DNA of 64,000 nucleotides from Porphyridium purpureum. Taxonomy: Eukaryota > Rhodophyta > Bangiophyceae > Porphyridiales > Porphyridiaceae. The translations under genes were made by a program, and so were the position numbers. Positions 9,668 to 23,474 of this stretch are shown piece after piece. Under the pieces are notes generated by a model. It ran no database searches and was not told the DNA's origin. It saw only the letters and a list, made by a program, of their open reading frames with translations. The stretch is from assembly GCA_008690995.1 (NCBI GenBank), contig VRMN01000004.1, positions 620,001 through 684,000 on the forward strand, read 5' to 3'. Numbering within the stretch: position 1 is the first letter of the stretch; every line of letters starts with the position of its first letter.

Positions 9668-11323
9668 TTAATCATCACCGCTCTTGGCGCCTTTCGCCAA
9701 ATTGCATTCCGCGTGAACCAACTGAGCGTTCTCGGCGTTCGTTGGCCCACCCTTGCTATGTGGTATAATGTGGTCGATATGCACATAGCCGGGCTCATTG
9801 AAGCGCGCCTCGTCCATGAATTGCTTGCATATTCCGCACAATCCGTTCTGGCTCTCAGAGAGCTTCCGAACGAATACCGGCCGGTTTGCGGAGGTGTCGG
9901 AGATGCTGGAAAAAGACCGGATGGGATCCAATGGCGGGGTAGAATTGGAAATCGCATCATTGACGATTCGCTTGAACTCATCGCGTCGAGCGATGAAGAA
10001 CGCAGTCCTCCTTTTTCCGTCGAGATCTCCTAAGGCCTCATTCTCGTAACTCTTCTGGATGCCCTGAATCATAGAACTCTTTGCCGCCGTGAACTGAGCC
10101 GATTTGTACAACCTAATGAGATCGATCATTGCAGCCACGCCCGCATCCCACAGCAAAAGATTGACAGAAGTCTCCCACTCATATTCTCCACCTCGGAGCT
10201 TCTTCCACCTCCTGAAGGCGTGTCGTCCAAACACGTTGCGCGAGATTTCCATCACTTTTTCAAAATCAGATCGCTTTCTGATCAGCTGGTCTGCCTTTTG
10301 CTTGTCGTTCTTTCCCTCCAGTTCTTCGTCCGTAAATCCTATGAGCTCTTCGTTCATCAGCTGATGCAGCCTCATGTCCCGTTTCTGAGTCCCGCTCTCC
10401 GTGAACGCAAGGGCACGAAGAATGAGCTGGCGATCTGCCTCCTTTCGACACGGCTTGTACGTTCGGTTTTCTACTGCTGTCGGGTCGCGAATCGCGTGAA
10501 AGTCCGTGCAAGTGTTTGCCACCTCATCAAGCATTCTGATGTATGGCCCATAGAAGAACGCGCGGCGCACCTGCTGCTCGTTCATTTTTTCTCCGCCGCT
10601 GTTGATGTCATTGTAAACATCAAACACTTCCTGCATCGGGGTACCGTACGGAATAATGGAGACGGTGATCTGGAAATTCTTGAACATGCGTCTTCGATCT
10701 TCACTCAAACCTAGGAAGGATATGCCGTTCAGGTTCTCGTAGTCATCGGAAAGCTTCTGAAGATACTCAAGCCGCGGCAGCACCGCATCGAATCTTTCGC
10801 GCCATTTGGGCGGCCGGCCGGGACCAATGTAGCGCTTCTGACCGTTCAACATGAACCCAAGCAAGGTGCACAGGCGCTGCTTACCATCCACACAGTCGTA
10901 TTTGCCCCTGGCTCTTTCGTGCAGCAACACTTGCGGAATCATCCGATTGCACAACGCCGTCACAATCAGGCGCGACGCCGTTTGCTCTTTCCACACATAG
11001 TCGCGTTGGTAGTCTGGAAAGAGATTCAGCTCATTTTCTTTCACTTTCTCCAAAAACATTCCCAGTTGCCAATTCTGAGCGCCTTGCCCTGAGCGCAGAC
11101 GATCCCCGCTGTCCAGTTTGACCAGTTCGCCCTCCCACAGATCTTCATCTGTCGCCACGCAACACATTGGGATTCCTCTGGCCCGCGATGACGCCCGCGA
11201 GGTCGGCGTCATCTGTTTCAGCGGGACACATTTCTGAACCCCATCTCGCCTCACGACCTGCACATGAGTGTTGGCCACAGCCCACCCGCACGCTGAATCG
11301 AGGCTTGCGGTCTTGACCAGCAT
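9668..11323 (-). CDS. DUF262 (GmrSD-like) plus HNH endonuclease protein
   Basis: A 551-residue protein with two domains best known from bacterial defence. The N-terminal DUF262/GmrSD-N region shows FPDYQRDYVWKEQTASRLI and then DCVDGKQRLCTLLGFML; the DGQQR-like motif is the family's catalytic or nucleotide-related signature. Near the C-terminus is a complete HNH motif: CGIC, then HIDHIIPHSKGGPTNAENAQ, LVHAECNLAKG. In bacteria such proteins cleave modified DNA (type IV restriction, GmrSD/BrxU relatives). Here the gene sits between ordinary nuclear genes, so it appears fixed in a eukaryotic genome. The frame extends upstream into a CA/GT microsatellite (MCECVCVCV...), which is unlikely to be translated, so I take the ATG at 11323. 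The role in the host is unknown. Confidence 0.86.
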   Translation of the reverse strand: MLVKTASLDSACGWAVANTHVQVVRRDGVQKCVPLKQMTPTSRASSRARGIPMCCVATDEDLWEGELVKLDSGDRLRSGQGAQNWQLGMFLEKVKENELNLFPDYQRDYVWKEQTASRLIVTALCNRMIPQVLLHERARGKYDCVDGKQRLCTLLGFMLNGQKRYIGPGRPPKWRERFDAVLPRLEYLQKLSDDYENLNGISFLGLSEDRRRMFKNFQITVSIIPYGTPMQEVFDVYNDINSGGEKMNEQQVRRAFFYGPYIRMLDEVANTCTDFHAIRDPTAVENRTYKPCRKEADRQLILRALAFTESGTQKRDMRLHQLMNEELIGFTDEELEGKNDKQKADQLIRKRSDFEKVMEISRNVFGRHAFRRWKKLRGGEYEWETSVNLLLWDAGVAAMIDLIRLYKSAQFTAAKSSMIQGIQKSYENEALGDLDGKRRTAFFIARRDEFKRIVNDAISNSTPPLDPIRSFSSISDTSANRPVFVRKLSESQNGLCGICKQFMDEARFNEPGYVHIDHIIPHSKGGPTNAENAQLVHAECNLAKGAKSGDD

Positions 11324-11338
11324 GTCAACGTCGTCGGT

Positions 11339-11369
<31 letters not shown>

Positions 11370-11412
11370 ACTCACACACTCACACACTCACACACACTCA
11401 CACACACACACG
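11339..11412. repeat. (CA)n microsatellite with TCACAC variants
   Basis: A run of CA dinucleotides interrupted by regularly spaced T (CACACTCACACT...), immediately upstream of the DUF262-HNH start. Alternating purine-pyrimidine sequence of this length can adopt Z-form. Confidence 0.95.
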
Positions 11413-15566: not shown

Positions 15567-17357
15567 CTACTGCTTGAAGCTCATCGAGTACGATCCTGTC
15601 GTGGGATCCTGTTGTAAATTGAAGTTGTCCAGGCTGAGTCCAAACTTACCCAACAATGAGTTGCCTAGATCTTTCAGCTGGCTCATGGCCTGCGCCATAT
15701 CCTTTTCGTCCTTATCCTTACAGAGCTGTGCTAGTCTTGCCACCTCAGAGGCCGATATGGATGTCGCATCTAGCTCTCGCATCTTGCGAGCGGCTTCCAA
15801 TGCCTGGCCAAGCTGACCGTCAAGCTCACAGGCCATCTTCAGTCGCGCATAGCCCTTGACGTACGTGGCTTCAAGATGCACTGAACGTTTGGCATCCTGA
15901 AGGGCCTCCTTTGGGCGCAAGTTCGGACTGTCTTTACCCTCCTCTGTACGCAGCAGCGTTGCAGCACGATTTGCGTATAAGACGGCTCGTGTAGTGCTTG
16001 TCAAGCACGTGCATCGCAGTGCCATTGAATATTTTCTGCGAGCATCACTGAACGCATTGCGCGTAAACGACTCGTTGCCTTGTTTCTTAAGTTCCATGGC
16101 TGCATCCTCATCCACTTCGCCAGCAAGGATTAAAGGTACAAACCTTACTTCGGTCACAGAGCTTCCAAAAGCCTTGTCCAAAAGTCGTTTGAGAGACTGG
16201 CTCACTTGGCGTGTAGAAAACATAACGTAGGGCCGTTGCATGTTTTCATTCACGACCAAGCCAAGCAAGTTGTCCAGAACTTGCACGGCATCATCTCGGT
16301 ACGGATTCCGGGCATCGTCATCGTCATCCTCGGGCACGCGTCCGGGAGCCGGGACGTGAGGACTTGCCTGTCGAGCGAGAATTTCGTCCACGTTCGAGAA
16401 TGCAATCGAAAAGATTGCCTGAGGAAAGATCTTTCCATATTCAAGGAGTCGCAACAGGACAATTGGAGCAGTCACCAGCACATCTGGAAGCACCAGGTCG
16501 TCATCATCATCCAGGAATACTTCTGCGTCTTCTTCTCCCATCTTTGCAACATGAAGGCCTTCTGTGTCCGCCAGTAGGTGCCGCAACGTTTGAGCGCTCG
16601 CATTAATGTCTTGGTACGTGTTTGTGAGGAGCACGGAGCACTTGTGTTCAGAGCATCCTTTTGCGTCCCTCTGACGTTCTGATACTCGCTGCCAGAGCAA
16701 CGTAAACAGCAGACAGCCGATAGACTTGCCCGAACCTGTCGGAGCACATACGACCAGGGTTTTCAACAAACTCGGCAACGAAAAGGTGCCACTCTCTCCT
16801 TTTTCAGTCGATGGTGCGGGTTCGCTGGCACTGAGCTTGACAAAGTTGAGCACCAGCTTTTGCACCGGATTGAGGTCAGTGATATCTAGATCTATCCATG
16901 GAGCCACACGTACATTCGCTAATCCCGACATCTCTGCAAATACCGTTTCGAGTGATATCCTGTCCGACACACCAGCCAACAATTCCTTCGTGAGTGTTGT
17001 CCTCTGTTGAACACTTTGCCGCAAGGCAGTATCGTTATTGAAGATGACATCCATTAGCTGCTGCTGCGACACTGGAAGCGCTTCGACAGAAGGCTGCAGA
17101 TCATACAAAAGCTCATCCGGCTCCAAATCATGCTGCAACCAGTCATCCTGATCAGCCTCGTCCATCTCACTCGCGCCGGCGTCATTCATTGTCGCGCCGT
17201 GGCCTTCGTCCGGAGCCTGACTGCCAGGCGCCTCCAACTCCTCGTCCGACGACCACGAATCGGATTGGGCTCCAAGTGAGTCCGAGGACGACGACTGGGC
17301 CTTTTCATCGAGGTCCTCGACAAACGCCTTTGCGTGCGGAGCGGGCGCATTCTCCAT
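15567..17357 (-). CDS. DEAD-type ATPase half-domain fused to a TTC1-like TPR domain
   Basis: A 596-residue protein combining two modules. Residues about 1-100 are acidic and disordered. Residues about 160-400 look like the first RecA lobe of a DEAD-box helicase: a Q-motif-like LNPVQKLVLNF, Walker A APTGSGKS (205-212), LVTAP (motif Ib region), a weak DEAD box (NVDEIL, about 322-327) and MFSTR in place of the SAT motif. No second RecA lobe follows. Instead residues 420-540 are TPRs (LKKQGNESFTRNAFSDARRK), and the tail LKDLGNSLLGKFGLSLDNFN then QDPTTGSYSMSF is the diagnostic C-terminus of TTC1/TPR1, an Hsp90/Ras-binding co-chaperone. The ATG at 17357 is chosen because the 33 residues upstream are poly-valine and glycine. 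Confidence 0.8.
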   Translation of the reverse strand: MENAPAPHAKAFVEDLDEKAQSSSSDSLGAQSDSWSSDEELEAPGSQAPDEGHGATMNDAGASEMDEADQDDWLQHDLEPDELLYDLQPSVEALPVSQQQLMDVIFNNDTALRQSVQQRTTLTKELLAGVSDRISLETVFAEMSGLANVRVAPWIDLDITDLNPVQKLVLNFVKLSASEPAPSTEKGESGTFSLPSLLKTLVVCAPTGSGKSIGCLLFTLLWQRVSERQRDAKGCSEHKCSVLLTNTYQDINASAQTLRHLLADTEGLHVAKMGEEDAEVFLDDDDDLVLPDVLVTAPIVLLRLLEYGKIFPQAIFSIAFSNVDEILARQASPHVPAPGRVPEDDDDDARNPYRDDAVQVLDNLLGLVVNENMQRPYVMFSTRQVSQSLKRLLDKAFGSSVTEVRFVPLILAGEVDEDAAMELKKQGNESFTRNAFSDARRKYSMALRCTCLTSTTRAVLYANRAATLLRTEEGKDSPNLRPKEALQDAKRSVHLEATYVKGYARLKMACELDGQLGQALEAARKMRELDATSISASEVARLAQLCKDKDEKDMAQAMSQLKDLGNSLLGKFGLSLDNFNLQQDPTTGSYSMSFKQ

Positions 17358-17539
17358 GGCGATTTTTTGTTGTGAACACACAGAATTCAAGCCGCTGTCA
17401 TCACCGCCGCCGCCAACCACCACCACCACGACGACAGTCGCAGGAGCACGGCGCAAGGAACCGCGACGTCAACTTCCAACGACGACGCCGAGCCGCCTCC
17501 GCACACGTCTCGCGCACGCGAGAAAAGTCCGCTGAGAAA

Positions 17540-17711: not shown

Positions 17712-18005
17712 ATGAAAGAGATAGCACGCAAAAGCTTGCCAAAGTCGGTTATCATGACCCGCTTGGCAGACAGAACAGGGCAGGAGAAAAAAAATTTAAA
17801 AAAAATTATCAATAAAATGGGCATGCTCGCAGGAAAACTGAGAAAAGTCGCGCTGTGGAAAAAAAAAGGTTTCACTTCGATGACTAAAGTTAAGTCGGCG
17901 AAAACAAAGTTGCGTGCCAAGACGATCTTCAAATTGCACACACAACAAACCCACTGCCTTCACACGACTGTCGATTGTACAATGACGGAGGCTATCAATT
18001 CATGA
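17712..18005 (+). CDS. Small lysine-rich protein, possibly HU/HLP-like DNA-binding
   Basis: A 97-residue, very basic protein. The order of features resembles the HU-type histone-like proteins of dinoflagellates and bacteria: a helix with KSLPKSVIMTRLADRTG, then KKNLKKIINKMGMLAGKLRK, a GF turn and a basic arm (KVKSAKTKLRAKT). The length (about 90-100) fits. The similarity is by eye and weak: the conserved arm proline and glycines are not clear. Local sequence is much more A-rich than its neighbours (runs of 7-9 A), which could mark transfer or a different selection regime. The frame is open back to 17595, but the ATG at 17712 gives the compact product. Its end overlaps the 3' end of the large membrane-protein gene by 11 bp. 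It could also be a non-coding 3' region. Confidence 0.4.
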   Translation: MKEIARKSLPKSVIMTRLADRTGQEKKNLKKIINKMGMLAGKLRKVALWKKKGFTSMTKVKSAKTKLRAKTIFKLHTQQTHCLHTTVDCTMTEAINS

Positions 18006-21000
18006 CCCTGCTCAACGCGTCAAACGCGAAGAAGGCGGCGCCTACTTTGTATGATTCGTGTTCGGACGCCCGCGTAGGAAGGCGGCGCAAGGTTGCTCCT
18101 CGCGCAAGAGTGCCTTGCGGGCCAAACGTACCAATCCGGTGGCTGGCCAGTCGAGAGCCGTGCGACGCTTCCAAATCAACGACCGTATGTTCGCTGGACC
18201 CGCCACTTTGCCAGGTGCTGGAACCTGAGACACTCTGAACTTCTCCAGCAAGACCCGAGCTGCGGCCAGCACCAGCCCCTGTTCCCGCGCCTCCTTTCGA
18301 GCGGGCGCTGACTTGGCCCTTGTCCAAGGCCTTTGTCTCGGCGAAGCTGTCCAACAGCACTGCGCGCTCTTCAATGTTCGTGCCGTGTATGCCTGCATAA
18401 ACCAGTGCCACCGTGAGATACAAGAGATTAAAGACAAACAAGCCTACAAAGAAGCCAGCGTACCCAGTCAAGTCCCCGATAAACTTGAGAGCGCTGTAGC
18501 TGGGAATCGTATTGAGCTCAACGGTATTATTGGCGCCAAAGTTGCCGCTCGTCGACCCGAACTTCAGGCGCGCACGCATGTATGCTTGCTGCGTGCTCTG
18601 TTCGAACACCCCCAGATCATGTGACGTGACACGATACCCGTAACGTGTGTTGTTATCAATGCTGCTTATGCCGAGCAGGATTTCAACCTGCGTATTGGGC
18701 GACTCGGTGGCTACCTGTTCCAAACGCTGAATACCAGTCCAAACGCCTGTACCTGACGGTTGCTCCATCAAGATACTCACCGAGTTGGAGAACGATTGAT
18801 TTGCAACACGATACGCGTCCCATGGATTGCTGCCTTCAATGGTGTAATTCCCGGCACCATTTTTGACAACCACAAAGTCTGCCTCAGAATCGGTCGGATA
18901 AATCACGCCACTGAAATATACCAATGAACAGAGCGCGTCGTCGTTGAATCCTTCAAACTCGCTCAAAGGCGAGCCGTCATCGATGCGAATTTTACCCGCA
19001 TCTAGTAGCTGATTCCGGCGCTGCATCAGAATCTGCTCCTGGTATGGATGTGAGTCTGCCAGAATCCTACCAAAGCCGGCGCCGTTCATGCAAGGCGTGT
19101 AGAGCGCGTCCGTAAAAAAATCAACAAAGATATCCGGCACTGGCTCGTCCTCAGCGACCGTTTCGTTGAACCACACACGGTAGCACACTCTGCAATCGTT
19201 TTGCGCATTTGCCGGGTCGATCGCAATGGTTGCCGCCGCCGCAGAACCGTCGCCGGCACAGCTGCTACCATTTGCCACGCGAGACACCTTATTGGCACCC
19301 CAGATCGGTCCAAAGATGACTTGGTCTGCGGTGGGCGCGAGAGAGTAACTGAACTCTCCGCGCCCGGCACGCGCAAACCCGAACATGGGCGTGCCGTCAT
19401 CAAGAATCTGAACGCCATTGTTTGTCCCATTGCGGTCTTGGCAAACCATAAGAGGAGGCAACGGCAGCGGGGCGCGCGGCAGTGTGTTGAAATTATACGC
19501 AAGTAGGTTGGGACTGTTGATGTAGAATGCGATAAGAAAGCCTGACGCAACCGCGGCACCTATGAACAAAATCAGAAGCAGTGTCAAGAGACCAATAAAA
19601 GCCCACTTGGATACCTGCTTGGCCAGCACTTGCTCCTCTTCCTCGACATTCGCAGTCGCAGATGCATCGATATTGGCACTGTTTCTCTTTCTCAGGCTCA
19701 GCCAAGCCACCAAAGGCGGAAGCAAGTAAAAGAAAATCCCAAAGACGCTCAAACCTGACAGGTTGCCGAGGACTGCGGCAACATCTTGCGTAAACTCCAG
19801 GTTTGAATATCTGTACACCATCGAAACCATTTCAAACAGCTGCGAATTGAAGGAAAACCCGATTTGGACTGAGAGGGCGCTATTCGTTCCCGACCAGCCG
19901 TCCAAGAACCGATCCCGCACACTTTCTCGAGTTTCAATTTGCGTCACCAGATCGGGAGCAAGCACAATGGAGGACGCCCCATTCTCCTGCTTGATATCCA
20001 CATCCGTTGTTTGAGCAAAGGAGACGTGCAGATCGCTGCTCATGGGCACGATGCCGCTAAGCTGAACATCTGATAAGTTGGCAGACAGTGCAGTGAACAT
20101 CTCAACCTGCTGGAAAACATCCACACGTGGAAGCGGAAAATGGCGCGGCGTTTGCGCGGACCCATACTCGAGTTTCAGGTTACTCTCATTCACAAAGGAA
20201 AACAACGGCGGCCCTAGTCCCGGCTCTGGCAATACATTAGCACTTCCTTCGACAGGGAAAACGGCCCCCGAAGTGAAGATGAGATCGCACAGCGCAAAAG
20301 CATTTGAGACCATATCTGCCTGGACCCTGAACTGTTCCGAAAATGGAGGCCTTGCCTGAGAGCTCGAACTTGAACTGCTGCTTCCGATAATGCCGCCTTC
20401 TGCCAGGGCGTCCCAATTGTCCACTACCCACTCCCAGGTTGGCGCCGCGGAGCAGCATAGCTCGCACGACGCAAAGCAGCAAGCGAATACATTATTCCAG
20501 AGGAAGCTGACAGTCAATTTGTCTCCTAGGCTGGCCGCCGAGACGTTGTTCGCAGCGCGCTCAAACATGTAGCACGTCTGGCATACCGTGTTTCCGGCTG
20601 ATAAGTCCAGCGCTGCTGTCAGATCACTCGGAAAGCTGGGCGCGCCAAGAGAGCCGCAGCCAAGCGATTCACCAAGCTGCTCATACTCATCATCCCCTCC
20701 TCCAAGTTCCAGAAAATGAAATTCCTCTACGTTCACAAAGAAGCCTCGCCGCAGAACACTTTTGGCCTCCTGGCCACACCGCGCCTGGCCCCCGAAAGTC
20801 ACACAATCTACATCATACGGCACAGACGGCGCATTCGTGGCAAGCGGCGAGAGCGGTGCGCCAGTGTTGGGCAATGCTTTGAGCTGCTCAGTGCCCCAAG
20901 CAGGCATACCCGGGCGCGTACAGAAAATGACTGTCGGCATGACGAATTCTTCAGCAGGAATGGTTTGATACTCTACAGCAAGCACAGGTTCCTGCGAAAA

Positions 21001-22800
21001 ATATTGCACAAACAGTATGACCAGAAGCACCACCGACGTAACGAGCAACGAAATAAAGACGAAAAGGTACCAAACCGCAACCTTTTCGTCCCTTGATATA
21101 TCTCCACTTCCATCTCGGTCCACATAACGCATAATCCACTCTTTTGCCGGATGGCCTTGGATCTGCTGGGTGACAACGGTCTGGTCGTCCGAAGGCTTTT
21201 TGCTCCATTTGGCGCACTGATCATGTAGCCAAACACAAGCCTCTGTGGCAAATATGATCATGGCGAAAATCGTCGTCCCGCTGAAAAGCGAGATCCAGCC
21301 GAATGCGTCCAGGAACCAGTTCAGTGCGGTGTCCGGGTATACCAAGGACACGGAAAAAATCACATCACCTATGTACGCAAATTCTGTCTTGGCTGTAAAC
21401 CAGTTGAACGTGTTGACAGTCGAGAGTTCATGCCGCACAATGCGACCCTCGCGAATTGGCGGGTCTCCAGGCTCCGTGGCTTCCCTTTCCTGCCTGAAAC
21501 GGAAGACAGCGATCTGCCCGACGGATGCCGTGCCGCGAAGATCCAGCTGGGGCATAAAAGATCCGTTCGCGAACGTCTCGCGAGCAACAAACACTTGCAT
21601 ATGATCCACTCGCTGACTCGCGCTTTCGATATATTTGTACAGGTTCTGGTCTTGTGCTCCCGACCGTGACCATTCAAACGTGTCTGCATCGACAAGTGTA
21701 AACCTTGCCGGAGTAAAAGGCTCCGTTACCGGATAAAGTTTGCCGCTGTACAAGACAAGCTCGCACAGAAAGTCCTTGGGCATAACAGTAAGAAACGGGG
21801 CGAATTGGCCCGAGCTGTCGGCATCCAGCGTACGCAGGAAATCGCGTGGCGCATTTACGATGATCCCATCGTCCACCAACTCTCCCCACAGCGCGTCAAC
21901 AAAGGCAAACGCAAGCGCGTTCGACATGAGGTCAGGAATCCCGCTAGCGCTTTGGTTTGCCTCCTCGGAAAGGAAACATTGACTGAGGGGGTTGATCTCC
22001 ATGTGGATTTGGAAAGCGTCTTCCAAGTCGTCCGACTTGGGTGCGCCTTCAAAAGAAGCACAAAACCGACACGCATCCAGTTCGGCGCGGTAAGTGGCCA
22101 TGTCAAACGGCAGGCTCTTGCTGAACAGCTCGGCACAGCGTTCCGCGCTCACAGAGTCTGGCAAGGTAGATTTCCAGTATTGCCGCAAGAATTTGTTGCA
22201 TTGGTTGTCACAGTTGTCTCCGCAGACGTCATCCTTGCGCTGAACGCATTTGAACAAACCTCCCGACGCTGTGGAAGGAAGTTCTGACGTAGGATAATTG
22301 CTACTCCTGAGCGGTTCAATGCGCTCAATGGGCGGAACGTTGGAGAGGGCATAAGGCATACACAGCTCCGAAGTGGGCATAACAAACTCTTCCAATGTCG
22401 GATACGGCGCAACCTCGACCTCGAAAACCGGTTCCTGGTGAATATATTGGTGTGTGATGAAAGTGAACGGGACGAGTGCGCCAAGAAATGCGACGAGCTT
22501 GAGCAGAGCTAATGTTCGTCTCAATCCAAACGCGCGCTTCTCCTTCGTACGAAATGTGCGGGAGCGCAACGCGGGACCCTCATCGCGCAGGTTCTGCTGC
22601 ACAAAATCTGGCTGCTGAGCGGACCGCAGGCTGTCTCCCGTGGGAAGAGTCGCACGTGAATCGGGCGCGGCCTGCAGCGCGGCTCTTAGTTTGTCGGCAC
22701 TGTCCGACGCCTCTGCAAACGCGACGCCCTTGGCTGTTCGGGATCCATCTGTTTTCGACGCCTTTGCCAACCCATCTTTTTCTTGCACTACCTGACCCAT
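17995..22800 (-). CDS. Giant membrane protein of three tandem DEG/ENaC-like units with an EF-hand
   Basis: A 1601-residue uninterrupted frame. Three homologous units each contain a membrane span, an ectodomain and a second span: TM at about 96-118 and 494-524; 576-600 and 1008-1034; 1066-1092 and 1439-1470. After each first span comes a short strand ending in a Pro/Cys motif (EEFVMPTSELC, EEFVMPTVIFC, LPLPPLMVC). Each ectodomain repeats a CxxC-aromatic motif (CRFC, CQTC, CRVC) and [FA]LCxLVxxSGxxYP (FLCELVLYSGKLYP, ALCDLIFTSGAVFP, ALCSLVYFSGVIYP). Each second span has a Gly/Ser-rich start (GWISLFSG, LSGLSVFG, TGYAGFFVG). Topology, the FPxxxxC-like motif and the Gly/Ser second span recall DEG/ENaC cation-channel subunits, which assemble as trimers. 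An EF-hand, DRDGSGDISRDE (561-572), lies between units 1 and 2. Termini are hydrophilic and probably cytosolic. The channel assignment is inference. Confidence 0.75.
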   Translation of the reverse strand: MGQVVQEKDGLAKASKTDGSRTAKGVAFAEASDSADKLRAALQAAPDSRATLPTGDSLRSAQQPDFVQQNLRDEGPALRSRTFRTKEKRAFGLRRTLALLKLVAFLGALVPFTFITHQYIHQEPVFEVEVAPYPTLEEFVMPTSELCMPYALSNVPPIERIEPLRSSNYPTSELPSTASGGLFKCVQRKDDVCGDNCDNQCNKFLRQYWKSTLPDSVSAERCAELFSKSLPFDMATYRAELDACRFCASFEGAPKSDDLEDAFQIHMEINPLSQCFLSEEANQSASGIPDLMSNALAFAFVDALWGELVDDGIIVNAPRDFLRTLDADSSGQFAPFLTVMPKDFLCELVLYSGKLYPVTEPFTPARFTLVDADTFEWSRSGAQDQNLYKYIESASQRVDHMQVFVARETFANGSFMPQLDLRGTASVGQIAVFRFRQEREATEPGDPPIREGRIVRHELSTVNTFNWFTAKTEFAYIGDVIFSVSLVYPDTALNWFLDAFGWISLFSGTTIFAMIIFATEACVWLHDQCAKWSKKPSDDQTVVTQQIQGHPAKEWIMRYVDRDGSGDISRDEKVAVWYLFVFISLLVTSVVLLVILFVQYFSQEPVLAVEYQTIPAEEFVMPTVIFCTRPGMPAWGTEQLKALPNTGAPLSPLATNAPSVPYDVDCVTFGGQARCGQEAKSVLRRGFFVNVEEFHFLELGGGDDEYEQLGESLGCGSLGAPSFPSDLTAALDLSAGNTVCQTCYMFERAANNVSAASLGDKLTVSFLWNNVFACCFASCELCCSAAPTWEWVVDNWDALAEGGIIGSSSSSSSSQARPPFSEQFRVQADMVSNAFALCDLIFTSGAVFPVEGSANVLPEPGLGPPLFSFVNESNLKLEYGSAQTPRHFPLPRVDVFQQVEMFTALSANLSDVQLSGIVPMSSDLHVSFAQTTDVDIKQENGASSIVLAPDLVTQIETRESVRDRFLDGWSGTNSALSVQIGFSFNSQLFEMVSMVYRYSNLEFTQDVAAVLGNLSGLSVFGIFFYLLPPLVAWLSLRKRNSANIDASATANVEEEEQVLAKQVSKWAFIGLLTLLLILFIGAAVASGFLIAFYINSPNLLAYNFNTLPRAPLPLPPLMVCQDRNGTNNGVQILDDGTPMFGFARAGRGEFSYSLAPTADQVIFGPIWGANKVSRVANGSSCAGDGSAAAATIAIDPANAQNDCRVCYRVWFNETVAEDEPVPDIFVDFFTDALYTPCMNGAGFGRILADSHPYQEQILMQRRNQLLDAGKIRIDDGSPLSEFEGFNDDALCSLVYFSGVIYPTDSEADFVVVKNGAGNYTIEGSNPWDAYRVANQSFSNSVSILMEQPSGTGVWTGIQRLEQVATESPNTQVEILLGISSIDNNTRYGYRVTSHDLGVFEQSTQQAYMRARLKFGSTSGNFGANNTVELNTIPSYSALKFIGDLTGYAGFFVGLFVFNLLYLTVALVYAGIHGTNIEERAVLLDSFAETKALDKGQVSARSKGGAGTGAGAGRSSGLAGEVQSVSGSSTWQSGGSSEHTVVDLEASHGSRLASHRIGTFGPQGTLARGATLRRLPTRASEHESYKVGAAFFAFDALSRVMN

Positions 22801-23474
22801 CGCGGCGGTGCTGCTCCTTGAGCTGCGCGTGGTTCCCGAGCTACTTTTTCATGTCACCCAACCCTCAGACCCAATAGCCGCTCCTGCGCGTCGAGACCTT
22901 TCCCCTTTCAACGCGGCGCGTACTTGGGCGATTGTCACCTCAAATCTCGGTTACCACCCGCCAACCCACGCACCACTTGTGCGCGGCGCAGTCACGACCT
23001 GCTCCCTCTGAATTCACGCGCAAATCGGCCAACACCCAGCGCACATCTGTAGCGTCGCTCCACATAGCCACCGCTGTGCAAGTGCGAGCGTGTCTGTCTG
23101 TCTGTGTGTGTGTGTGTGTTTGCGTGTGTGTGCGATCCGACACGTGTCGCCATGATCGAAGCTCTGTGGCCTGTTCACGGCGCTTTCAATCACTCCGAAT
23201 GACCGCTCCGCACTCACAACACGCTTCGTTCAGCCGCGCGCCTCTCCGGCAACAAAACACGCTTCGAAAATATCCACGCGTGGCACAAAACGCTCCATAT
23301 CAAAATAACACAAAGTAATGATATTTTGAGCGAGCGCGCGCAACACGGCGCGGCGCTTTGGACCGAATCCAAAACGGTTCAGTGGCGAGTTTTGTCCATG
23401 CCACACAAGAACAGCTGCGCGCGCACACTGTGGAAGGCACGCGCGCGCGCCGCAGGGAAGAATGCGCATGGTAG
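22801..23474. other. Upstream region with a GT-rich microsatellite
   Basis: This is the 5' flank of the large membrane-protein gene. A TCTG/GT run (about 23092-23133, TGTGTGTGTGTGTGTTTGCG) is the only structured feature. Short frames here show no recognisable protein. Confidence 0.5.

Follow-up and report, generated by a model that had tools for sequence, protein, structure and literature searches.

A protein with three repeated units

The stretch of DNA analysed here (the window, 64,000 nt) comes from the red alga Porphyridium purpureum (assembly GCA_008690995.1, 22.16 Mb in 46 contigs; contig VRMN01000004.1, positions 620,001 to 684,000 of the forward strand). On its minus strand, an uninterrupted frame runs from an ATG at 22800 to a stop codon at 17995 and encodes 1601 amino acids, in which three units, each with two membrane spans, follow one another, with an EF-hand loop between the first two (Table 1). 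All 1601 residues are contained, at 100% identity, in the P. purpureum protein FVE85_2888 (1644 aa). The gene model for FVE85_2888 has 43 further N-terminal residues (window 22800-23070, minus strand); since part of this extension reads in another frame, at ~23066-23042, an upstream exon and an intron are implied.

We compared the units by Smith-Waterman local alignment and set each pair against 300 full and 300 block shuffles. Units 1 and 2 score 131, against shuffle maxima of 60 (full) and 67 (block), and units 2 and 3 score 72, against maxima of 63 and 64; the score for units 1 and 3 is 59, which is also the maximum of both shuffled sets and is equalled by one of 300 shuffles in each. The three units are homologous, and the triplication is above chance; the pairing of units 1 and 3 is marginal by itself and is carried by unit 2. 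Divergence is strong, with the other two units 27% and 15% identical to unit 1. Hydropathy analysis identifies six membrane spans, arranged as three pairs (residues 97-115/499-517, 580-598/1014-1032 and 1067-1085/1449-1467), and a smaller peak where the LC motif of unit 2 lies (830-848). Of the 30 cysteines, 28 fall within the three loops (10, 12 and 6 in units 1, 2 and 3; binomial P 0.003), as do 12 of the 13 glycosylation sequons (P 0.07, not significant), and 16 of the 18 Lys/Arg residues that lie up to 15 residues from a span are on the predicted cytosolic side, where the net charge is not always positive. These distributions fit a predicted topology with a disulphide-bonded ectodomain in each unit and both unit ends in the cytosol.

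The units share an order of motifs: Pro-x4-Cys after span 1, then CxxC, then LCxL[VI]xxSGxx[YF]P, each present in all three. An aromatic residue directly follows CxxC in only two units (CRFCA, CQTCY and CRVCY in units 1, 2 and 3), a fourth CxxC occurs at residue 779 in unit 2, and the LC motif reads LCDLIFTSGAVFP in unit 2, where Ile and Phe replace Val and Tyr. Between units 1 and 2, DRDGSGDISRDE has the canonical features of a 12-residue EF-hand loop (D1, D3, G6, a hydrophobic residue at 8, and E12). It is a single hand with no paired hand, and it misses the Pfam EF-hand cut-off (25.4), scoring 18.9 bits on a 41-aa fragment. Only some six residues separate the end of the loop from span 1 of unit 2, and the helix that leaves the hand is therefore likely to continue into the span 1 helix. 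A second EF-hand look-alike, DADSSGQFAPFL, lies in the ectodomain of unit 1 (residues 326-337; window 21790-21825, minus strand); its position 12 is not Glu.

An earlier, sequence-only reading of this locus had described a single 1601-residue protein of three units, with two spans per unit, a common motif order and a canonical EF-hand loop between units 1 and 2. The intact frame, the alignments, the six spans and the loop bear this description out, as do the motif order and Pro-x4-Cys; it needs amending in the aromatic after CxxC, which that reading had placed in every unit, and in its LC consensus, from which unit 2 departs.

Table 1. Features of the 1601-codon frame, with residue numbers counted from its ATG.
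Feature	Residues	Window position	Strand	Basis and remarks
Open reading frame with three two-span units in tandem	1601 codons	17995..22800	-	open-frame reading, protein match, hydropathy
Unit 1	86-545	21166..22545	-	unit-to-unit alignment
Span 1 of unit 1	about 97-117	22450..22512	-	hydropathy
Pro-x4-Cys of unit 1 (PTSELC)	142-147	22360..22377	-	motif reading
CxxC of unit 1	244-247	22060..22071	-	
LCxLVxxSGxxYP of unit 1	345-357	21730..21768	-	
Span 2 of unit 1, filter-like G508-T-T510	from Asp498	21250..21309	-	TM2 profile, motif register
EF-hand loop DRDGSGDISRDE	561-572	21085..21120	-	canonical pattern; cytosolic by predicted topology; directly before span 1 of unit 2
Unit 2	569-1060	19621..21096	-	unit-to-unit alignment
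Span 1 of unit 2	about 578-600	21001..21069	-	hydropathy, Pfam; site of the ASC match together with Pro-x4-Cys
Pro-x4-Cys of unit 2 (PTVIFC)	622-627	20920..20937	-	motif reading, Pfam, HHalign
CxxC of unit 2	740-743	20572..20583	-	
LCxLIxxSGxxFP of unit 2	837-849	20254..20292	-	
Span 2 of unit 2, filter-like G1016-L-S1018	from Asp1006	19699..19785	-	TM2 profile, motif register, structure look-up
Unit 3	1056-1490	18331..19635	-	unit-to-unit alignment
Span 1 of unit 3	about 1067-1088	19537..19602	-	hydropathy
Pro-x4-Cys of unit 3 (PPLMVC)	1115-1120	19441..19458	-	motif reading
CxxC of unit 3	1203-1206	19183..19194	-	
LCxLVxxSGxxYP of unit 3	1290-1302	18895..18933	-	
Span 2 of unit 3, filter-like G1453-L-F1455	from Asp1443	18394..18474	-	TM2 profile
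C-terminal tail, Gly/Ser-rich	~1470-1601	17998..18393	-	sequence; cytosolic by predicted topology

Likeness to DEG/ENaC channels

DEG/ENaC/ASIC channels are trimers of subunits with two membrane spans (TM1 and TM2), a large Cys-rich ectodomain, an FPxxTxC-like motif after TM1 and a Gly/Ser filter in TM2. Four lines of evidence, concordant and individually weak, point to a likeness between these channels and the algal units: Pfam matches to ASC, a TM2 profile, an HHalign comparison with ASIC1, and structure look-ups with models of the units. The top Pfam family for the whole protein is ASC (PF00858; gathering cut-off 23.6 bits), which matches residues 575-629 at model positions 22-75 with E 0.0036 and 16.8 bits, below the cut-off. 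ASC is also the top family for unit 2 (E 0.0051) and for a 132-aa fragment (E 0.00072), and reaches its highest score with a 93-aa fragment (E 8.9e-5, 22.1 bits, still below the cut-off), a value flattered by being the best of several fragments; six other fragments gave no ASC match in Pfam, two of them matching Ig_7 and DUF4870 below cut-off. Of the FPxxTxC-like motif, the Pro-x4-Cys is kept in all three units, and the Phe and Thr positions are not. When the unit alignment was compared by HHalign with chicken ASIC1 alone, the best local alignment joined span 1 and Pro-x4-Cys, in register, with a score of 21.15 against a highest of 21.05 and a mean of 15.3 among 60 block shuffles, and a probability of only 0.8%; global HHalign gave no sensible full-length alignment with ASIC1.

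The second spans were placed in register by a MAFFT alignment that contained the three units and no ENaC sequence, and in which D498/D1006/D1443, G508/G1016/G1453 and F512/F1020/F1457 are invariant columns. In this register, the equivalents of ASIC1 Asp433 (upper gate) and Gly443 (filter) are kept in all three units, and the third filter position (Ser in GAS/GxS) is Thr510, Ser1018 or Phe1455. We built a TM2 profile from six segments in PDB alignments (ASIC1, ASIC2, FaNaC1, and alpha-, beta- and gamma-ENaC) and scored it ungapped with BLOSUM62. Among 1575 positions in the protein, the register of unit 3 ranks 1st, that of unit 1 3rd and that of unit 2 10th; among 53,770 positions in other translations of the window, 0, 6 and 53 reach the scores of units 3, 1 and 2, respectively. 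With the profile columns permuted 20,000 times, the joint fraction is 0.00015 (0.001 for units 1 and 2 alone), and with each unit's own 42-residue segment shuffled, the fractions are 0.019 for unit 1, 0.11 for unit 2 and 0.0002 for unit 3. Much of the signal is carried by the Asp and Gly columns; without those of Asp433, Gly436, Gly439 and Gly443, the ranks of units 1, 2 and 3 are 68, 161 and 8.

Low-confidence models of units 1 and 2 were built from the three-row alignment, without DEG/ENaC sequences, and have a mean pLDDT (predicted local distance difference test) of 34-35; a search for DEG/ENaC loci with which to extend that alignment gave none. In a structure look-up with the unit 2 model, 21 of 50 among the matches listed are DEG/ENaC, alongside unrelated structures, and two of the 50 are P2X7; with the unit 1 model, two of 50 among the matches listed are DEG/ENaC. 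Foldseek returned nothing at E 0.001 for either model; five of 50 among the matches listed are DEG/ENaC for one model, all with E of at least 3.2, and none of 50 for the other.

A TM1 consensus with its ambiguous letters chosen by hand matches ASC in Pfam (E 0.0089). The native TM2 segment of unit 1 had no Pfam match, and ASC was matched by none of 10 unbiased random TM2 chimeras (three matched other families, below cut-off) and none of 10 register-shifted TM2 controls (two matched other families). A TM2 consensus that matched ASC positions 414-448 (E 0.61) was dropped from the argument, its letters having been chosen by hand. No DEG/ENaC model was among the NCBIfam matches, the best of which was UrtC (E 0.0022, far under its cut-off). 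PDB sequence searches with the whole protein and with the unit profile found no DEG/ENaC, and those with three-unit TM1 or TM2 profiles each gave one chance match, to small photosynthetic subunits.

Other results are negative, and several weigh against placing the protein in DEG/ENaC. Units 1 and 3, searched singly in Pfam, do not match ASC, and the ASC gathering score is reached nowhere in the protein. The TM2 match of unit 2 is not significant by itself, and a strict hidden Markov model of the same six TM2 sequences gives negative scores, with shuffles scoring higher. The disulphide ladder of the ASIC thumb would lie partly in the residues shortly before TM2; no cysteine follows residue 346, 838 or 1291 until the next span 2 (~150-170 residues), and there is no thumb cysteine ladder. 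None of the three first spans is preceded by the His-Gly motif, which is highly conserved in ASIC/ENaC according to PMC7308080; HG is found at 1472 and 1547 and nowhere else, in both cases beyond the final span. At the positions of Glu451 and Asp454, which PMC10148893 terms highly conserved, the units have Ile516/Thr519, Phe1024/Leu1027 and Tyr1461/Val1464. Because the His-Gly motif, the thumb cysteines, Glu451/Asp454 and the gathering score are all missing, we call the protein DEG/ENaC-like and make no claim of formal family membership. The proposal of DEG/ENaC-like units in the sequence-only reading holds in part, being backed by the four concordant lines and lacking these hallmarks; its further proposals, a single-chain pseudotrimer and gating by Ca2+, are plausible.

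We searched for homologues with the complete protein, with the alignment of the units and with 54 residues of unit 2, scoring the 7999 candidates sharing most words, the top 8000, and 2, respectively; the searches returned the protein itself or nothing. Such searches miss distant relatives, so the case for an orphan protein is weak. In viral and prokaryote contigs, scanned with the unit alignment, none of 59 and 101 pattern stretches was confirmed. In the alga's own genome, neither the complete protein nor any of its units has a match away from this gene, the lone second place being unit 1 itself (E 0.12), and a six-frame search found no PF00858 match, a weak negative since it misses even the 1601-codon gene. 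In a control search, PF00858 scored above cut-off in Thermotoga maritima, which is unexpected for an animal channel family. To our knowledge, DEG/ENaC channels are considered to be, in essence, an animal family. A BLASTp survey that used animal queries and included Rhodophyta found candidates only in holozoans and in one alveolate and one stramenopile species (PMC10507113). We found no description of a natural concatenated DEG/ENaC channel among the titles and opening parts of abstracts listed by our searches, a set that leaves out most subscription journals and all preprints.

A candidate single-chain channel and its alternatives

On balance, we lean slightly towards a cation channel of DEG/ENaC-like architecture, pseudo-heterotrimeric and made as one chain, whose pore, trimer geometry, cation selectivity and Ca2+ control we infer. 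Our judgement is evenly divided on whether the protein is a natural single-chain trimer of DEG/ENaC type, with three diverged subunits fused as an obligate pseudo-heterotrimer, a single Ca2+ sensor on one of them, and a place on a deep non-animal branch. In such a channel, each unit would run from the cytosol through span 1 into a disulphide-bonded ectodomain and return through span 2 to the cytosol, with the second spans of all three units converging on a central pore. Asp498, Asp1006 and Asp1443 would stand in place of the upper gate of ASIC1, to which Asp433 of the chicken protein contributes (PMC10148893), and the non-identical triplet G-T-T/G-L-S/G-L-F in place of the GAS filter, a belt that PMC7308080 describes as a constriction supported by the re-entrant loop before TM1. 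If the units form one trimer, the upper-gate Asp ring would be complete and the filter asymmetric, with Phe at one position; the loss of Glu451/Asp454 predicts poor Na+ selectivity. As happens in four-domain voltage-gated channels, covalent links would fix the identity and order of the subunits. The EF-hand would occupy, in unit 2, the place of the pore-lining pre-TM1 (His-Gly) loop of ASIC1, so that a direct effect of Ca2+ on the lower pore is conceivable; Ca2+ on the EF-hand may move the span 1 helix of unit 2 and so change the open probability.

The units might instead belong to a two-span, Cys-rich family unrelated to DEG/ENaC, a surface receptor or extracellular-matrix anchor with three repeats and convergent TM motifs. 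The family searches that stay under cut-off, the four absent hallmarks, the lack of any homologue in our searches, and a conserved LCxLVxxSGxxYP block with no nameable DEG/ENaC counterpart would all suit such a family. We nonetheless think it rather unlikely, given that the TM1 and TM2 tests agree on the family, at the right unit ends and in a common register, and that the structure look-ups are concordant for two unit models. Somewhat less plausible still is that the units are DEG/ENaC-like and do not form a single pseudotrimer, either because assembly is between chains, with several of them contributing units to each pore, or because unit 3 or unit 1 is a non-conducting structural unit. The strong divergence of the units and the Phe of unit 3 where the filter has Ser are in keeping with this idea, whereas channels of the family have three subunits (ASIC, ENaC and, according to its abstract, PDPNaC1) and the equivalents of Asp433 and Gly443 are kept in every unit.

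We consider a P2X-like trimeric two-span fold very improbable. Two P2X7 structures among the 50 matches listed for the unit 2 model hint at it, as do the ten ectodomain cysteines of unit 1, the number found in P2X receptors; against it, DEG/ENaC accounts for 21 of the same matches, Pro-x4-Cys and the Asp/Gly spacing fit DEG/ENaC, neither the protein nor its units (at E up to 10) match Pfam P2X_receptor, and the genome gave no P2X match in a type of search that also missed PF00858 here. That the frame is a gene-prediction artefact or pseudogene, as the lack of any relative in our searches might suggest, is scarcely credible when 1601 codons run uninterrupted, the three repeats align and the cysteines cluster in the loops.

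Genomic context and comparison with known channels

Elsewhere on the minus strand of the window, a 567-aa frame (9668-11371) has GmrSD_N (E 9e-22) and HNH (1.8e-9) domains, matches NsnA in PADLOC (7e-46) and resembles a bacterial anti-phage nuclease; it was possibly acquired by transfer. In a neighbouring frame at 15567-17456 (minus strand), a sub-threshold DEAD-helicase-like part (E 0.0016) precedes a weak TPR-like one (E 0.14), an odd pairing.

The candidate channel resembles DEG/ENaC/ASIC subunits in having two spans around a Cys-bearing ectodomain of comparable size, Pro-x4-Cys after TM1, and equivalents of Asp433 and Gly443 in every unit. The distance from the motif Pro to the gate Asp is 356, 384 and 328 residues in units 1, 2 and 3, compared with 344 in chicken ASIC1 (from the HHalign alignment and Asp433). 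The algal protein differs from DEG/ENaC/ASIC subunits in having three units in one chain, an EF-hand loop and a red algal host, in lacking the His-Gly motif, the thumb cysteine ladder and Glu451/Asp454, and in its ASC score, below cut-off. A red algal relative would push the origin of the fold back, or imply transfer followed by extreme divergence. P2X receptors are also trimers of two-span subunits with Cys-rich ectodomains; they have no sequence match to the algal protein in Pfam. The myriapod channels BRTNaC1 and PDPNaC1, both among the matches listed for the unit 2 model, are short chains (431 and 421 aa in the PDB), near the size of one unit; unlike the algal units, they are animal proteins, and PDPNaC1 is, according to its abstract, a homotrimer of separate chains.

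The genome of this alga also contains four frames with four Ion_trans matches each (C11:1516151-1520734, two on C45, and C46:195852-199838), in open frames of 2442, 2019, 1906 and 1730 aa, so channels that join several domains in one chain are not unusual in this species. Four-domain voltage-gated channels likewise link non-identical pore domains covalently; their domains have six spans, their pore is four-fold and their fold is unrelated. A natural concatemer would be a ready tool, with subunit order and stoichiometry fixed, and with the filter positions and a Ca2+ sensor on one subunit testable unit by unit. If our reading of the algal protein as a single-chain channel is correct, it would be a trimeric counterpart of the four-domain Nav/Cav channels.

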